A DNA stretch of 64,000 nt from Marinicauda algicola (GTDB taxonomy: Bacteria > Pseudomonadota > Alphaproteobacteria > Caulobacterales > Maricaulaceae): assembly GCF_017161425.1 (NCBI RefSeq), contig NZ_CP071057.1, positions 1,488,001 to 1,552,000 of the forward strand, read 5' to 3'. The notes beneath the pieces were generated by a model that was not told the origin of the DNA, did no database searches, and saw only the letters and a program-made list of their open reading frames with translations. A program made the translations under genes and the position numbers. Below, piece after piece: positions 49,862-55,798 of this stretch. Each line of letters starts with the position of its first letter. Position 1 is the first letter of the stretch.

Positions 49862-52426
49862 ATGACGCGGCCCTGGATCGTGATGAAGTTCGGCGGCACA
49901 TCGGTCGCCGAGCCGGCCAACTGGGACATCATCGCCCGGCTGGCGCGAAAGCACCGCGAGGCCGGAAAGCGCGTGCTCATCGTGCATTCCGCCATCGCGG
50001 GCGTATCGAATGCCCTCGAGGCCCTGCCCCGCGCCGCACTCCAGGGCGAGGGCGAGGCGGCCGCGGAAGCGATCAAGGACCGCCATCGCAGCTTCGCCGC
50101 GGAGGCGGGCCTTGCCGTCGGCCCGGCCCTGCAGGCCCTGTTCGACCGGCTCGACGCGCTGACCGCCGGCATCGCGCTCATCGGCGAGGCGAGCGCGCGC
50201 GTGCGCGCCGAGCTGATGGCGATGGGCGAGCTGATGGCCTCCGCGCTCGGCCTGCAGGCGCTGGAGAAGGCCGGTCTCGCCGTCACCGGTCTCGACGCGC
50301 GCGAAGTCTTCCAGGCGGTCAATGACGGGGCCGATGCGCGTGCCTATCTCGACAACACGGTCTGCGAGGACCCCGATCCGGCTTTGCAGGACAAGCTGAA
50401 GGGGCTCGACCTCGTTCTCACGCAGGGCTTCATCGCGCGCAATTCGCGCGGCGAAACCGTGGTGCTCGGCCGCGGCGGCTCGGACACCTCGGCGGCCTAT
50501 TTCGCCGCCAAGCTCGAGGCGGAAAAGCTCGAGATCTGGACCGACGTGCCGGGGCTCTTCTCGGCCGATCCGCGCCTGACCTCGGGCGCGCGACTCCTGA
50601 AGGCGCTGTCCTACGAGGAGGCCCAGGAAATCGCCACCATGGGCGGAAAGGTCATCCATCCGCGCTGCGTCGGGCCGGCCCGGCGCGCGGGCATCGCAAT
50701 GGAGGTGAAGGACACCTTCCGGCCCGACCTTCCCGGCACGCGCATCTCCGCCGCGCCCGGCGACGACGCGCCGCGCCTGAAGGCGGTGTCGGTGAAGCCC
50801 GGCATCCGCCTCGTGGTGATGGAGGGCGCCGGCATGTGGCGTCAGGCGGGCTTCCTGGCCGACGTGTTTGCGGTGTTCAAGAATTGCGGCGTCTCGGTTG
50901 ACCTCGTCTCGACCTCGGAGACCAACGTCACGGTGAGCCTCGATCCGGATCCGGGGCTCGATGCCGCCCGGCTCGACCGGCTCAAGCGCGAGCTCGAGCC
51001 GCTGTGCCGCGTGCGCATCCTGGAGGATGCCGCGGCGGTCTCCATGGTCGGCTACGGCATCCGGCGCATCCTGCACCAGCTCGCCCCGGCGCTCGAAGCC
51101 TTCCAGGACAAGCCGATCCGCCTGGTCAGCCAGGCCGCGAACGATCTCAACTTCACCGTCGTCGTGGATGCGCCCGAAGGCCGCGCACTCGCCGTGCGCC
51201 TGCACGAGAGCCTGATCGGGCCCTCGCCCGAAACCAGCGTGTTCGGGCCGAGCTGGGCGGAGATCGCCGCGCCGTCCGGTGCGCGCACCGAGCGCGCCCG
51301 GCCCTGGTGGCAGGAGCGGCGAAAGGAGCTCCTCGATCTCGCGCCGAAGACCGGCGGGCTCTATGTCTACGACCTGCCCACGGTCACCGCCCGGGCCAAG
51401 GCGGTGAACTCGCTCGCCTCCATCGACCGGGCGTTCTACGCGATGAAGGCGAACGCCAACCCGCACGTGCTGAAGGCGATCCAGGCGGCCGGCGTCGGCA
51501 TGGAATGCGTGTCGATGGGCGAGGTCGAGCACGCGCGCGAGGTGCTGGACCTTGCGCCGGGCGACATCCTCTTCACCCCCAATTTCGCGCCGCGCGAGGA
51601 GTACGAGGCCGCGCTCAGGCTCGGCGTCCACCTGACGATCGACGGCCTGCACCCCCTGACCGAGTGGCCGGAGCTGTTCGACGGCGCCGAGATCATCCTG
51701 CGCGTCAATCCCGACCGTCCGCGCGGCCACCACGCCCACGTGAAGACGGCCGGCCCGAAGGCCAAGTTCGGCATTGCGCTCGACGCCCTTCCCGCCGCGA
51801 AGGCCGCGGCCGAGGCAGCCGGGGCGCGGGTGGTCGGGCTGCACGCCCATGCCGGCTCCGGCGTCACCGAGCCCGAGCACTGGCGCGAGATCGGGGCGAT
51901 CCTGGCCGAAGCCGCCGCGCGCTTCGAGCACGTGCGCCTCCTCAATCTCGGCGGCGGGCTCGGCGTGCCCGAGGCGCCCGACGCGAAGGCGCTCGATCTC
52001 GCCGGCGTCGAGCAGAACCTGAAGGCCCTGAAGAAGGGCGCGCCCGGCTTCGAGCTGTGGATGGAGCCGGGGCGCTATCTGGTGGCCGAAGCCGGCGTGC
52101 TGCTCACCCGCGTCACGCAGATCAAGCACAGCTTCGGCACGCGCTTCGTGGGGGTCGCCACGGGCATGAACTCGCTGATCCGCCCGGCCCTCTACGGCGC
52201 GCGCCACGAGATCGTGAACCTCTCGAGGCTCGGCGAGGCCCCGGCCGGGCTCGCCTCCATCGTCGGGCCCATCTGCGAGAGCGCGGACCTCCTGGGCGCC
52301 GAGCGGCTGCTCCCTGAGACGGAGGAGGGCGACGTCATGCTGATCGCGACGGCGGGCGCCTACGGGCGGGTCATGAGCAGCTTCTACAACCGGCGCGAAC
52401 CGGCGGGGGAGACCGCATTGGCGTAG
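49862..52426 (+). CDS. lysC-lysA: Bifunctional aspartate kinase / diaminopimelate decarboxylase
   Basis: An 854-residue fusion joining the first and last steps of lysine synthesis. Residues 1-465 are aspartate kinase: KFGGTSV at 9-15, LGRGGSDTSA at 202-211, and two ACT domains (about 315-385 and 390-460) that allow lysine feedback. Residues 485-854 are the PLP decarboxylase: Lys529 in FYAMKANANPHVL, GLHAHAGSGVTEPEH, NLGGGLG and EPGRYLVAEAGVLL. The product also supplies diaminopimelate for peptidoglycan. GGAG is 8 bases before the ATG. Fusion genes of this order are known in Xanthomonadaceae. Confidence 0.96.
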   Translation: MTRPWIVMKFGGTSVAEPANWDIIARLARKHREAGKRVLIVHSAIAGVSNALEALPRAALQGEGEAAAEAIKDRHRSFAAEAGLAVGPALQALFDRLDALTAGIALIGEASARVRAELMAMGELMASALGLQALEKAGLAVTGLDAREVFQAVNDGADARAYLDNTVCEDPDPALQDKLKGLDLVLTQGFIARNSRGETVVLGRGGSDTSAAYFAAKLEAEKLEIWTDVPGLFSADPRLTSGARLLKALSYEEAQEIATMGGKVIHPRCVGPARRAGIAMEVKDTFRPDLPGTRISAAPGDDAPRLKAVSVKPGIRLVVMEGAGMWRQAGFLADVFAVFKNCGVSVDLVSTSETNVTVSLDPDPGLDAARLDRLKRELEPLCRVRILEDAAAVSMVGYGIRRILHQLAPALEAFQDKPIRLVSQAANDLNFTVVVDAPEGRALAVRLHESLIGPSPETSVFGPSWAEIAAPSGARTERARPWWQERRKELLDLAPKTGGLYVYDLPTVTARAKAVNSLASIDRAFYAMKANANPHVLKAIQAAGVGMECVSMGEVEHAREVLDLAPGDILFTPNFAPREEYEAALRLGVHLTIDGLHPLTEWPELFDGAEIILRVNPDRPRGHHAHVKTAGPKAKFGIALDALPAAKAAAEAAGARVVGLHAHAGSGVTEPEHWREIGAILAEAAARFEHVRLLNLGGGLGVPEAPDAKALDLAGVEQNLKALKKGAPGFELWMEPGRYLVAEAGVLLTRVTQIKHSFGTRFVGVATGMNSLIRPALYGARHEIVNLSRLGEAPAGLASIVGPICESADLLGAERLLPETEEGDVMLIATAGAYGRVMSSFYNRREPAGETALA

Positions 52427-52608
52427 AGTGCCGCATCTGCGACCATCGATTTTTTTCGACTTCGAGTGAAACAACCGCCTGCCTGGCTCGTTAACCATAA
52501 CTAGCCCGTTAGGTCACTCTTTGAACGCTGGGGGCCTTTCCGGGCAGCACCGGACGGCTCCGGTTCGTCACCTCCGTCCGGATCGCTGAATCGGCTAAGG
52601 AGGAAATG

Positions 52609-54537
52609 ATGACGCATCGAGACGACGCACGAGGCGTTTCGCAATTGAGCGGTGTGGGGATAGCGACCGCCCTTGTCCTGGGCGTGTCGGCGCCGGCAAT
52701 CGGGCAGAGCATGCCTGTATTCGAACTCGGCGATGCCTCGGCAGATCCGCAACAGGCACGTCAATTCTACGAGGCGGCCTTCGGAAGGCAGAACGCACAG
52801 CGGTCTCTCCGCCAGATCGACCCGACGCAGCTGCCACGCCGGCCCGAATTCCAGCCGCAGGATCTTCAGGGGCCCGACAGGCCGAACCTCGACAAGCAGC
52901 AGGTGGAAAGACCCCGACCCCAACAAATCGATCCGGGCACGTTGCAGCGCCAGCCGATCGATCCCGAGGTGCTGCAGCGCCCCCAAATCGACCCCGATCT
53001 CAGGCAGCCCGAAGTCCGGGAGACCGACACCGCCGTGGTCCTTCGCTCCGGCGAACGCCTCGTCGAGATCGACCGGCGCAGCGGCCACGTTTTCCTGGGC
53101 GACATGTCCCAGCTCTGGGACCCTTCCGGGCTTGCGGACGGGCAAATTCCCGATGAGGATCAGGCTCGGGAACTCGCGCAAAGATTCGCCGAACAGAGCG
53201 AATTCCTGCCGCGTCCGGACGAATACCTGGAGGTGCGGTTCTCGCACATGACCGAGACGGCAACATCCGAGGATACCGGCCGGCCCAACAAGCGTGTGCT
53301 GAACCGGCAGGCCAACTACGTCGCCCGCGTTCGTGTCGACGGGCAATCCTTCCCGGTCGTCGGCGGTGGCGGAGACTTCCAGATATCGGTCGGGCCCAAC
53401 GGCCAGATCGTCGGCGCCCAGGGCGGCTGGCGGGAGATCGAAGGTGTCGCCACCCGGGCCGAGATCCTTCCGCGCGAAGCCGCCCTGGAAGCGGTGGCGC
53501 GCCGCGGCAACGGGGTGGAATATTCCGGTCTCGACGCCGAGCTCGCCTACTACGCGGCGCCCGCTTTCAAGGAGCAGGCTTACCTCACTCCGGTCTGGGT
53601 GGTGACCGGGATGGTCAACGTGCATGGCCAGGAAAGCCCGCTGCGCCCCCAGATCGTCGCGGCGACCGAGCAGTTCGGCCCGGTCTGGGAGCAGTTCCCC
53701 GCCCCCGAACGCGACCCCGATCGGCTCGCGCCGCCGGCCGAGGGCGACGAGATGGAAGAGCGTGAGGGGGGACCCCAGCGTCAGGGCTTCCTGGAATGGC
53801 TCATTCCCACCGCGCACGCCCAGTCGAGCTGGAAGGAATGCGGCACCGACTGGATCGGCGAAAGCCAGGGCCTCGGCGGCAGCTCCGCCAACCGGCAGGG
53901 CTTCATCGACGGCTGTCGAGACGAAAACTGGTCGGTGAATTTCGACTGGGGCGATGAATGGGCATGGGAAAGCGATTTCCACGCCCACGACGACAGCTAT
54001 ATCGACAGCGCGGACCTCGTATTCTTCACCGGCCATGCCAGCCCGAACGGCTGGACGATGAACCCGCCGGACGATGGCGGGATCAATTTCCGCGAGGTGC
54101 GAGGCGGCCGCGACCTGTACGGAAACCAGGACCTCGAATGGCTCATCATTGCCGCGTGCGGGCCGCTTCAGAGCGATCACTTCCAGTCGAACGTGAACAA
54201 CGCCTTCGATCGCTGGCGCGACATTTTCGACGGGATGCACACCTTCCTGGGCTATGGTGCCGTCACGTTCGACAATACCGAGGAAGGCGGGCGCTTCATG
54301 GAACTGACGCGCAATGGCTGGGACGTGATCGATGCCTGGTTCCGCACGGCCCAGGAAATACAGCCCTCCACCAACAGCTGGTCGCCGCCCAATGGGCCGA
54401 CGATCCGCGTCGTGGCGATGTACGCGCATGACGGCGATGACTGCCCGCTCAACGAGAATATTCACGGGCAAGGCACTGTCTGCGCCGACGTGACCAAGCC
54501 CGGCCAGCGGCGCACCATGGTGTGGTCCGGGACCTGA
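52609..54537 (+). CDS. Secreted protein with DUF6345-like, possibly caspase-fold domain
   Basis: A 642-residue exported protein. A signal peptide (ATALVLGVSAPAIGQS) is followed by about 70 residues with four IDPxxLQRxP-like repeats, a beta-rich middle domain (ARVRVDGQSFPVVGGGGDFQ), a PTAHAQ stretch, and a C-terminal domain resembling DUF6345. There a strand ends in FFTGHASPNGW (His476) and 41 residues on WLIIAACGPL (Cys517), the order and spacing of the His/Cys dyad in clan CD peptidases. The usual HG is HA. AAGGAGG is 5 bases before ATG 52609. Function unproven. Confidence 0.7.
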   Translation: MTHRDDARGVSQLSGVGIATALVLGVSAPAIGQSMPVFELGDASADPQQARQFYEAAFGRQNAQRSLRQIDPTQLPRRPEFQPQDLQGPDRPNLDKQQVERPRPQQIDPGTLQRQPIDPEVLQRPQIDPDLRQPEVRETDTAVVLRSGERLVEIDRRSGHVFLGDMSQLWDPSGLADGQIPDEDQARELAQRFAEQSEFLPRPDEYLEVRFSHMTETATSEDTGRPNKRVLNRQANYVARVRVDGQSFPVVGGGGDFQISVGPNGQIVGAQGGWREIEGVATRAEILPREAALEAVARRGNGVEYSGLDAELAYYAAPAFKEQAYLTPVWVVTGMVNVHGQESPLRPQIVAATEQFGPVWEQFPAPERDPDRLAPPAEGDEMEEREGGPQRQGFLEWLIPTAHAQSSWKECGTDWIGESQGLGGSSANRQGFIDGCRDENWSVNFDWGDEWAWESDFHAHDDSYIDSADLVFFTGHASPNGWTMNPPDDGGINFREVRGGRDLYGNQDLEWLIIAACGPLQSDHFQSNVNNAFDRWRDIFDGMHTFLGYGAVTFDNTEEGGRFMELTRNGWDVIDAWFRTAQEIQPSTNSWSPPNGPTIRVVAMYAHDGDDCPLNENIHGQGTVCADVTKPGQRRTMVWSGT

Positions 54538-54560
54538 ACCCGGCCAGGGGGAGACATGGA

Positions 54561-54587
54561 AAGGGCCGCTCGCAGGCGGCCCTTTCT
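54561..54587 (+). terminator. Rho-independent terminator after the DUF6345-like gene
   Basis: AAGGGCCGC (54561-54569) pairs with GCGGCCCTT (54576-54584), followed by TTCTCTT. It separates this gene from the lipoprotein gene downstream. Confidence 0.8.
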
Positions 54588-54618
54588 CTTCGATATGAGC
54601 CGGCCCAGGATATCACCC

Positions 54619-55059
54619 ATGAAGTCCGATCGACCCGCGCGCGCTTGGATGGCACTGCTGGCAGCCGCTCTGACAGCCGCCTGCGCCGACGAGCGCGCAG
54701 GTTCGCCCGGGGATGTCCAGTCGGCAGCCTCGCAACCTTCACAGGCCAGCCCGGCGACGATCGCCAACGGCCTGGCCGGTCAGATCGGCGAGCGCGTCCA
54801 TGTGCAGGGCGTCTATCAGGGATTCATGGTCAGACCCTGCCGGTTTCCCGAAGAGGTGAGACCCACCAGCCTGACCCGGAGCGACTGGCTGCTGCGTCAG
54901 GAGGATGTATGCGTTTATGTGACAGGGGGGCGGCCATCCGGGATCGCGCCTCTGGACACCAGCCGCGTGGGCGAGACTGTGAATGTGATCGCCGAGATAC
55001 GCCAGGATGAGCAGGGCAGGATCTACCTGCTGTTCCTGCAGGGCGAAGTCAGCCCCTGA
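54619..55059 (+). CDS. Small lipoprotein of unknown function
   Basis: A 146-residue lipoprotein: signal MKSDRPARAWMALLAAALTAAC with a lipobox cysteine (LTAAC) at residue 22, a Ser/Gln-rich linker, then an OB-like or barrel-like domain (GERVHVQGVYQGFMVRPCRF, GETVNVIAEIRQDEQGRIYL). Two cysteines in the mature part could pair. Family not recognised. A terminator separates it from the caspase-like gene, so it is probably a separate transcript although the genes may be related in function. Confidence 0.72.
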   Translation: MKSDRPARAWMALLAAALTAACADERAGSPGDVQSAASQPSQASPATIANGLAGQIGERVHVQGVYQGFMVRPCRFPEEVRPTSLTRSDWLLRQEDVCVYVTGGRPSGIAPLDTSRVGETVNVIAEIRQDEQGRIYLLFLQGEVSP

Positions 55060-55150
55060 CCCGGCTTCGTCCGGCGGCAGGCATGTCCGGCGCCCCTCGT
55101 TGGCGGCAAGCGGTGTTGTCGGGAAGACGAGTGAGGGGACCGGGAGAGGG

Positions 55151-55798
55151 CTACAATCCCCCCACCCCGGCCCCGATCAGGCCGGACCCCCTCAGGCCCA
55201 CGATCACGAACTCGACCGCCAGGGCCGCCAGGATGATGCCCATGATGCGGATGGAGACCGTGCGGGCGGTCTGGCTGACCACGCGGTCGAGCAGCGGGGC
55301 GATGATCAGCGCGGCGAACAGCAGCGCGACGACGATGAGGATCACCGCGGCGAACAGGCCTGCGCGCATCGGGGAATCGACCTGCTCGGAGAAGATGATC
55401 AGCGTGGCGATCGTGCCGGGGCCCACCGTCATCGGGATCGTGAACGGGTAGATGCCCGGATTGTCGATGCGCTCCATCTGGCCGCGCTCGCGCTCGGTGC
55501 CCGCGCTCGAGGTGTGACGCGCGCCGGAAATCATCGTCAGCGCGATCTGGAACAGGAGGATGCCGCCCGCGATGCGGAAGCTGTCGATCGCGATGCCGAA
55601 CAGGGCGAGGACCTGCCGGCCGATCAGGGCGATGGCGAAACACGCGACGATCGTGGCGACGACCGCGGTGATCGCGGTCCGGCGCCGGCTCGCCTCGCTC
55701 TCGCCCTCCGTGAGGGAGAGGAAGACGGGCATCGCCGCGAGCGGGTTCAGCATCGCGAAGAAGGCCGCCAGGAAGCGGGTGAAGAATTCGATGTCCAT
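55151..55798 (-). CDS. MarC family membrane protein
   Basis: A 215-residue inner-membrane protein with six hydrophobic helices. FFAMLNPLAAMPVFLSLTEG at the start, GGILLFQIALTMISG and YPFTIPMTVGPGTIATLIIF match the MarC/UPF0056 family. The family was once linked to multiple antibiotic resistance but that role was withdrawn; its transport function is unclear. Genes on both sides are on other units; the 311 bases upstream hold a dispersed repeat and the nrdB terminator. Confidence 0.92.
   Translation of the reverse strand: MDIEFFTRFLAAFFAMLNPLAAMPVFLSLTEGESEASRRRTAITAVVATIVACFAIALIGRQVLALFGIAIDSFRIAGGILLFQIALTMISGARHTSSAGTERERGQMERIDNPGIYPFTIPMTVGPGTIATLIIFSEQVDSPMRAGLFAAVILIVVALLFAALIIAPLLDRVVSQTARTVSIRIMGIILAALAVEFVIVGLRGSGLIGAGVGGL

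Follow-up and report, generated by a model that had tools for sequence, protein, structure and literature searches.

The locus

The window, by which we mean the whole analysed stretch of 64,000 nucleotides from Marinicauda algicola, contains the following features around the gene of interest.

49862-52426, + strand: fused aspartate kinase and diaminopimelate decarboxylase (lysC-lysA), with AA_kinase, ACT and Orn_DAP_Arg_deC domains
52411-55177, no strand: extra segment between lysC-lysA and marC, relative to G001, a genome of the same genus
52597-52603, + strand: likely ribosome-binding site AAGGAGG, read directly, just 5′ of the ATG
52609-54537, + strand: reading frame of the DUF6345 protein (642 aa); a second possible ATG lies at 52606, one codon earlier
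52609-52710, + strand: probable signal peptide, residues 1-34; N-terminus and boundary judged by eye
52804-53010, + strand: proline-rich stretch with repeated IDP units, about residues 66-134 (repeat families D2 and D3)
53134-53667, + strand: core of the putative FTP/PepSY-like region, residues 176-353, with borders of our choice; homologous to the product of a separate gene in Desulfobulbus (L005)
53806-53823, + strand: PTAHAQ (residues 400-405) of the interdomain linker
53848-54528, + strand: DUF6345 domain, residues 414-640, PF19872 match
54034-54036, + strand: His476, candidate catalytic histidine
54157-54159, + strand: Cys517, candidate catalytic cysteine
54238-54240, + strand: His544, second invariant histidine
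54559-54586, + strand: 12-bp GC-rich hairpin 3′ of the DUF6345 gene, fold z-score -3.1
54619-55059, + strand: small ORF, 146 aa, with a lipoprotein-like start (LTAAC), in the same extra segment

The reading frame that a first-pass annotation had placed here is real: it is open throughout, from the ATG to the stop codon ending at 54537. The N-terminus reads by eye as the signal peptide that the annotation had proposed, and the N-terminal region extends to about residue 400. Residue 476 is indeed a histidine, followed by AS, and residue 517 is a cysteine after IIAA, 41 positions later, both as claimed. We noticed no counterpart of the short IDP-containing repeats among the relatives of the protein. 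The hairpin behind the gene, which 2 of 200 shuffled sequences matched in folding, is a possible transcription terminator; the scan for promoter and terminator consensus sequences at the gene listed nothing.

In G001, marC comes directly after lysC-lysA, and the matching stretches are 75 bp apart versus 2,767 bp in the window. The additional 2,767 bp hold the DUF6345 gene and the small lipoprotein-like ORF; this comparison is based on one genome, as the marC neighbour was not found in G005. The segment is missing from G001 and the G+C content of the DUF6345 gene (65.6%) lies below that of lysC-lysA (71.3%) and of the window (69.1%), which together suggests that the segment was gained in the lineage of the window, loss in the relative being the alternative. 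No convincing direct repeats were seen at its borders. The small ORF gave no Pfam match at E ≤ 0.1 and no plasmid match, and it was not found in the stretches of G001 and G005 that were compared. The lysC-lysA fusion itself has near full-length matches in G001, G005 and G007.

The protein is rare. Among the 149 genomes of the kin draw it is present in just one, the window's own. PF19872, the Pfam family DUF6345, was detected in one genome among 385 of the class, in two among 299 of the phylum, in five among the 247 from the phylum to which the Desulfobulbus genome belongs and, for the classes that three further carriers belong to, in 1 of 229, 2 of 12 and 3 of 148; these draws share genomes with one another and contain the seed genomes. 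Our own 8-row DUF6345 profile found matches in 7 of 163 genomes of the Desulfobulbus class. One of the 14 control genomes, that of Methanosarcina acetivorans, also carries a match, and the family is thus found in bacteria and in an archaeon. The scan of genome contigs for relatives of the protein returned one, from Desulfobulbus; the plasmid search had Deinococcus peraridilitoris as its sole source, and there were none in the viral contigs scanned and none in phages. PADLOC recognised none of the 14 family members discussed below, and the window protein found no match in NCBIfam.

The DUF6345 domain and its conserved residues

The assignment to DUF6345, already made in the first-pass annotation, is firmly borne out: PF19872 matches residues 414-640 with 146.9 bits against a curated cut-off of 26.9 (E 7.7e-43; profile positions 2-220 of 221). 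Pfam describes this family as one of unknown function, and we found no mention of DUF6345 in the open-licence PMC literature. For the analysis of conservation we aligned 14 DUF6345 domains, namely the window protein, L003 (from the Deinococcus plasmid), L004, L005, L008 to L013, L015, L016, L018 and L020. With 92% identity, L008 and L009 are almost copies of each other, and both are inside the alignment; L017, whose frame is broken by one TAG, and the fragment L019 were left out of the conservation and linkage counts. At E ≤ 10, 13 of the 14 aligned members match PF19872. L015, L016, L018 and L020 were recruited by our own DUF6345 profile, and L015 and L020 also match PF19872.

The column of His476 holds histidine in all 14 domains, and that of Cys517 holds cysteine in 13, with a serine in L004. 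The conservation on which the first-pass annotation had made its proposal depend is therefore present. Histidine occurs in at least 7 of the 14 rows in only three columns, 476 (14), 544 (14) and one other (7), while cysteine does so in column 517 (13) and then in four others (8, 7, 7 and 7). Because of these column counts, the His476/Cys517 dyad exceeds chance. Further conserved positions are His544 and Asp627 (each 14/14) and Asp466, Asp469, Asp508, Glu510 and Trp577 (each 13/14). The spacing from the histidine to the cysteine varies from 38 to 55 among the members. In this very divergent family, both residues are kept where hydrophobic stretches end. Eleven members have Gly directly after His476 and three have Ala (the window protein, L008 and L009), so that HA in place of HG, which had been called unusual, is indeed the minority state. 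The other two HA members are distant from the window protein, with 34-35% identity.

The serine of L004 (1432-2274) replaces the candidate catalytic cysteine in this DUF6345 member, which is possibly an inactive version of the protein. Tyr/Ser pseudo-orthocaspases, as they appear in the excerpt of PMC6426788, would offer a parallel.

Comparison with clan CD peptidases

In clan CD, according to PMC4357240, strands 3 and 4 of a six-stranded sheet carry the catalytic dyad at their C-terminal ends. In DUF6345 we see a conserved His followed by a conserved Cys (14/14 and 13/14), the order expected of clan CD. As in the caspase (C14) and gingipain (C25) families, the His ends one hydrophobic stretch and the Cys a later one, and the local motifs hhhxGHG and hhhxxC closely match those of clan CD. 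The spacing of 41 in the window protein falls into the range of the C25 sequences that align in register (31-43) and is shorter than that of the C14 sequences that do so (48-66). DUF6345 differs from both families in its companion domain, in its second invariant histidine and in that the sequence similarity is not significant.

This last point is based on profile comparisons with C14 and C25 alignments that we built from 28 and 14 sequences, respectively, a part of all matches. With hhalign, DUF6345 gave single-pair E-values of 0.0038 against C14 and 0.11 against C25, which became 0.029 and 0.10 with the realigned DUF6345 set. The controls gave 0.27 (reversed C14), 0.17 (reversed C25) and 0.57 (decarboxylase), and as a yardstick C25 against C14, both accepted members of clan CD, yielded 1.1e-4. 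The default alignment to C14 covers 62 columns and ends at the His; the relaxed one spans most of the DUF6345 domain and places His on His and Cys on Cys. After removal of gap columns the profile scores were 21.1 for C14 and 20.1 for C25. When columns were shuffled in blocks of 1, 5 or 12, the former was reached in 1, 5 and 34 of 150 cases and the latter in 0, 1 and 9 of 150, and we therefore rejected significance for this similarity. Since shuffled columns reach it, the score reflects local motifs, and with non-significant profile scores the sequences leave homology between DUF6345 and clan CD undemonstrated.

In alignments with single sequences, His476 and Cys517 fell on a catalytic-looking His and Cys in 23 of 28 C14 and about 7 of 14 C25 cases, where catalytic-looking is our own reading of the contexts and one C25 case is ambiguous. 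When any His and any Cys were counted, the numbers were 25 of 28 and 7 of 14, versus 12 of 151 ORF decoys from the window, 1 of 12 decarboxylases, 7 of 28 reversed C14 and 2 of 14 reversed C25 sequences; the sequences within one family are not independent, which makes these counts descriptive. With HMMER filters on, none of the 14 members matched a Pfam peptidase family at E ≤ 10, and for this reason we do not assign DUF6345 to C14 (PF00656) or C25 (PF01364) on the Pfam evidence.

A search of PDB sequences with the window protein alone gave 0 matches. The 8-row DUF6345 profile retrieved only two designed "pizza" repeat proteins and the 14-row profile 22 sequences, of which 21 were pizza designs and one an antibody chain. 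We rejected the matches as artefacts, the pizza matches because they are summed repeats of one motif. The model of the DUF6345 domain, computed from a two-row alignment of the window protein and L005, reached a pLDDT of 30.4 and was too poor to use.

A companion domain that changes its position

In Desulfobulbus (L005), a separate companion gene lies 3′ of the DUF6345 gene and encodes 328 aa from the start that we chose (360 aa as listed). Residues 35-400 of the window protein are homologous to its product (phmmer E 2.2e-9, Z set to 10,000). Throughout the family we find this companion in different arrangements. It is fused N-terminally in the window protein, L003, L008 and L009 and C-terminally in L020; it is encoded by the next gene in L005, L010, L011, L012, L015, L016 and L018, and by the preceding gene in L013. 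L020 (460-2445, - strand) has the DUF6345 domain first, which is the order of most two-gene versions. In L011 (2-934; genome G811) the DUF6345 gene has another companion-like frame upstream of it, and this pair may be partly duplicated.

The companions fall into two groups; L009, as a near copy of L008, was not included in the homology tests. In the first group, phmmer connects the window protein with L005 (2e-9), L003 with L008 (4e-48), and L005 with L015 (1e-8) and L018 (2e-6), while profiles link window plus L005 to L003 plus L008 (6.5e-7) and a five-member profile to L018 (3.1e-9). In the second, L010 to L013 match mutually (1e-64 to 8e-9), and their profile matches L016 (1.1e-5). The link between the groups is weak (E 9e-4; reversed controls 0.62 and 0.74), as is that of the L020 companion to the first group (E 9e-4; reversed control 0.59). 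The neighbour of L004 has the right size and place and shows no recognisable relationship (0.23 and 0.27; reversed 0.29). On these sequence comparisons, with support that ranges from strong to weak, the companion appears linked to DUF6345 in 13 of the 14 intact members, and the fourteenth has an unproven candidate. Beside the broken and partial copies L017 and L019 we recognised no companion gene by eye.

What kind of domain the companion is can be approached by several individually weak lines. Different members gave sub-threshold Pfam matches to DUF4901 (YcdB/YcdC; E 1e-4), FTP (0.11 and 0.12) and PepSY (0.19), three families that we take to be related. None of them exceeded its cut-off (22.9 versus 27 bits for DUF4901, 12.8 versus 21 for FTP and 12.5 versus 24 for PepSY), and the unrelated families SAPC2_N (0.089) and FAM91_C (0.13) were as strong as FTP and PepSY, so that DUF4901 is the sole match standing out by its E-value. 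With trimmed companions, DUF4901 was seen in 2 of 13, FTP in 2 of 13 and PepSY in 0 of 13, beside unrelated families. The window's own N-terminal region gave chance matches only. In NCBIfam, one companion member matched thymidylate synthase (best 4.4e-4) and two or three matched SprB (best 7.4e-4).

Structural comparison used a model of the L005 companion from a two-row alignment (pLDDT 50.7, pTM 0.40), for which Foldseek found no match at E ≤ 0.001. VIA-align 2 was run over Foldseek's list, and we considered the best 30 chains. All companion fold matches have Z ≤ 5.5, where VIA-align 2 gives 7-8 as the typical best Z of models that lack a clear match. The matches include 4k61 (DUF2874, which we take to be PepSY-like) and 4hbr at 5.5, the C-terminal domain of YpeB (5boi; YpeB presumably carries PepSY domains) at 5.3, the "BLIP-like" 4fr9 at 5.2, the fungalysin entry 4k90_B at 4.3 and the vibriolysin entries 3nqz_A and 3nqy_A at 4.0 and 3.9; 4k90_B and 3nqz_A are, we assume, propeptide chains. 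Interspersed among them are unrelated chains, for example copper amine oxidases, OspA and a designed protein. The search of the PDB with the companion alignment found no propeptide; its profiles returned two designed proteins (a binder and a repeat protein), an antibody and a BAG-domain protein, which we discarded as chance matches. Because the weak Pfam and fold lines agree, they converge in part on a companion of the FTP/PepSY type, a weak assignment that rests on sequence matches and a model.

FTP/PepSY domains serve as propeptides of M4/M36 metalloproteases. The companion resembles such propeptides of thermolysin, fungalysin and vibriolysin through the weak Pfam and fold matches and, in the window protein, through its position N-terminal to the presumed peptidase. 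It differs from them by its attachment to a presumed cysteine peptidase and by its occurrence at the C-terminus or as a separate gene. With this, the suggestion of the first-pass annotation that the protein is a secreted zymogen gains support from an N-terminal domain that is a separate gene in relatives and looks FTP/PepSY-like. The part of the suggestion that regarded PTAHAQ as the activation site is to be dropped, as nothing similar is present at 400-405 in the other aligned members, and we rejected this motif as a conserved activation site of the family.

Proposed function

The clan CD-like dyad, the export and the near-constant companion of propeptide type lead us to propose a cysteine peptidase that is exported and has a PepSY-type partner as its inhibitor or foldase. 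We regard it as slightly better than an even bet that the protein is an exported clan CD-like cysteine peptidase with His476 and Cys517 that is held inactive by an FTP/PepSY-type module in cis or in trans; here we infer the fold, the catalysis, the inhibition and the activation step. The DUF6345 domain would be a peptidase of the caspase/gingipain type using this dyad. The N-terminal FTP/PepSY-like domain would fold with it and keep it inactive until it has left the cytoplasm, a form of inhibition modelled on thermolysin and fungalysin propeptides and their metalloproteases. Activity could then be released through cleavage of the linker near residues 354-413 or through dissociation, and in relatives with an adjacent companion gene the companion would act in trans. 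As a default guess, the role would be extracellular or periplasmic proteolysis. Since its position is free (N-terminal fusion, C-terminal fusion or separate gene), the companion is better seen as a lasting partner than as a simple N-terminal propeptide. Against the proposal stand the conservation of His544, which equals that of His476, and the one member with Ser for Cys.

Clan CD also includes transamidases and ligases, and this fact, the companion's occurrence at either end or as a separate protein, which is easier to reconcile with a stable partner than with a propeptide that is discarded, and a lipobox-like start seen by eye in five members (L003, L005, L008, L015 and L020) would all suit a transpeptidase, ligase or narrow processing enzyme. 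Such an enzyme would have the same fold and dyad, and its PepSY-like partner would be a folding or targeting module. We consider this unlikely; in the short flanks that we read, with no dedicated search, no family of recognition substrates or sorting signals was noticed beside the genes. A shade less probable is that His476, Cys517, His544 and acidic residues near them form a metal site or structural core in an enzyme that is not a peptidase, or in a binding domain. Here the full conservation of His544 and Asp627, the near-full conservation of Asp508 and Glu510, and the poor quality of the fold model speak in favour, while the exchange of Cys for Ser in the otherwise intact L004 and the close match of the two motifs to clan CD speak against.

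The caspase-like fold might instead be inactive in the window protein, with its HA in place of HG, and be retained as a binding domain. The three HA members are all fused proteins, and none of the other 148 genomes in the kin draw has a relative of the window gene from which local constraint could be measured. Nevertheless, the dyad and the other near-invariant positions are intact in the window protein, and the other two HA proteins, nearly identical to each other, are far from it in sequence; we rate the inactive fold as quite improbable. The lowest probability of these alternatives, around the level of an outside chance, goes to a coincidental His/Cys pattern in an unrelated alpha/beta family. 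The non-significant profile scores and the block-shuffle controls would agree with a coincidence, but exactly these two residue types are kept at the expected places in 13 to 14 of the 14 domains.

For the exported peptidase with a PepSY-type partner, the known system of YpeB offers a further likeness: YpeB may hold the Bacillus spore lytic enzyme SleB inactive, as stated in the excerpt of PMC13393411. In both cases an exported hydrolase has a possibly inhibitory partner, and YpeB 5boi is among the companion fold matches; SleB, on the other hand, is a cortex-lytic enzyme and not a cysteine peptidase. A pairing of clan CD or caspase-like proteins with PepSY was not found in the open-licence PMC literature, which does not in itself prove novelty, and no pairing of PepSY with a cysteine protease or caspase-like protein was among the matches listed from this literature, as far as their excerpts go.

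Significance for the family

Extended to the whole family, our reading is more tentative and falls somewhat short of an even chance: DUF6345 proteins may be undescribed exported clan CD cysteine peptidases with a thermolysin-type FTP/PepSY domain as inhibitor or foldase, a domain free to occur fused at the N-terminus, fused at the C-terminus or encoded by a neighbouring gene. If this is true, clan CD would gain a family, and PepSY-type regulators would not be tied to metalloproteases or lytic enzymes. Moreover, nature would provide cis and trans versions of one enzyme-inhibitor pair, making its regulation directly testable, and a Pfam family of unknown function, present in bacteria and in Methanosarcina acetivorans, would receive a function.
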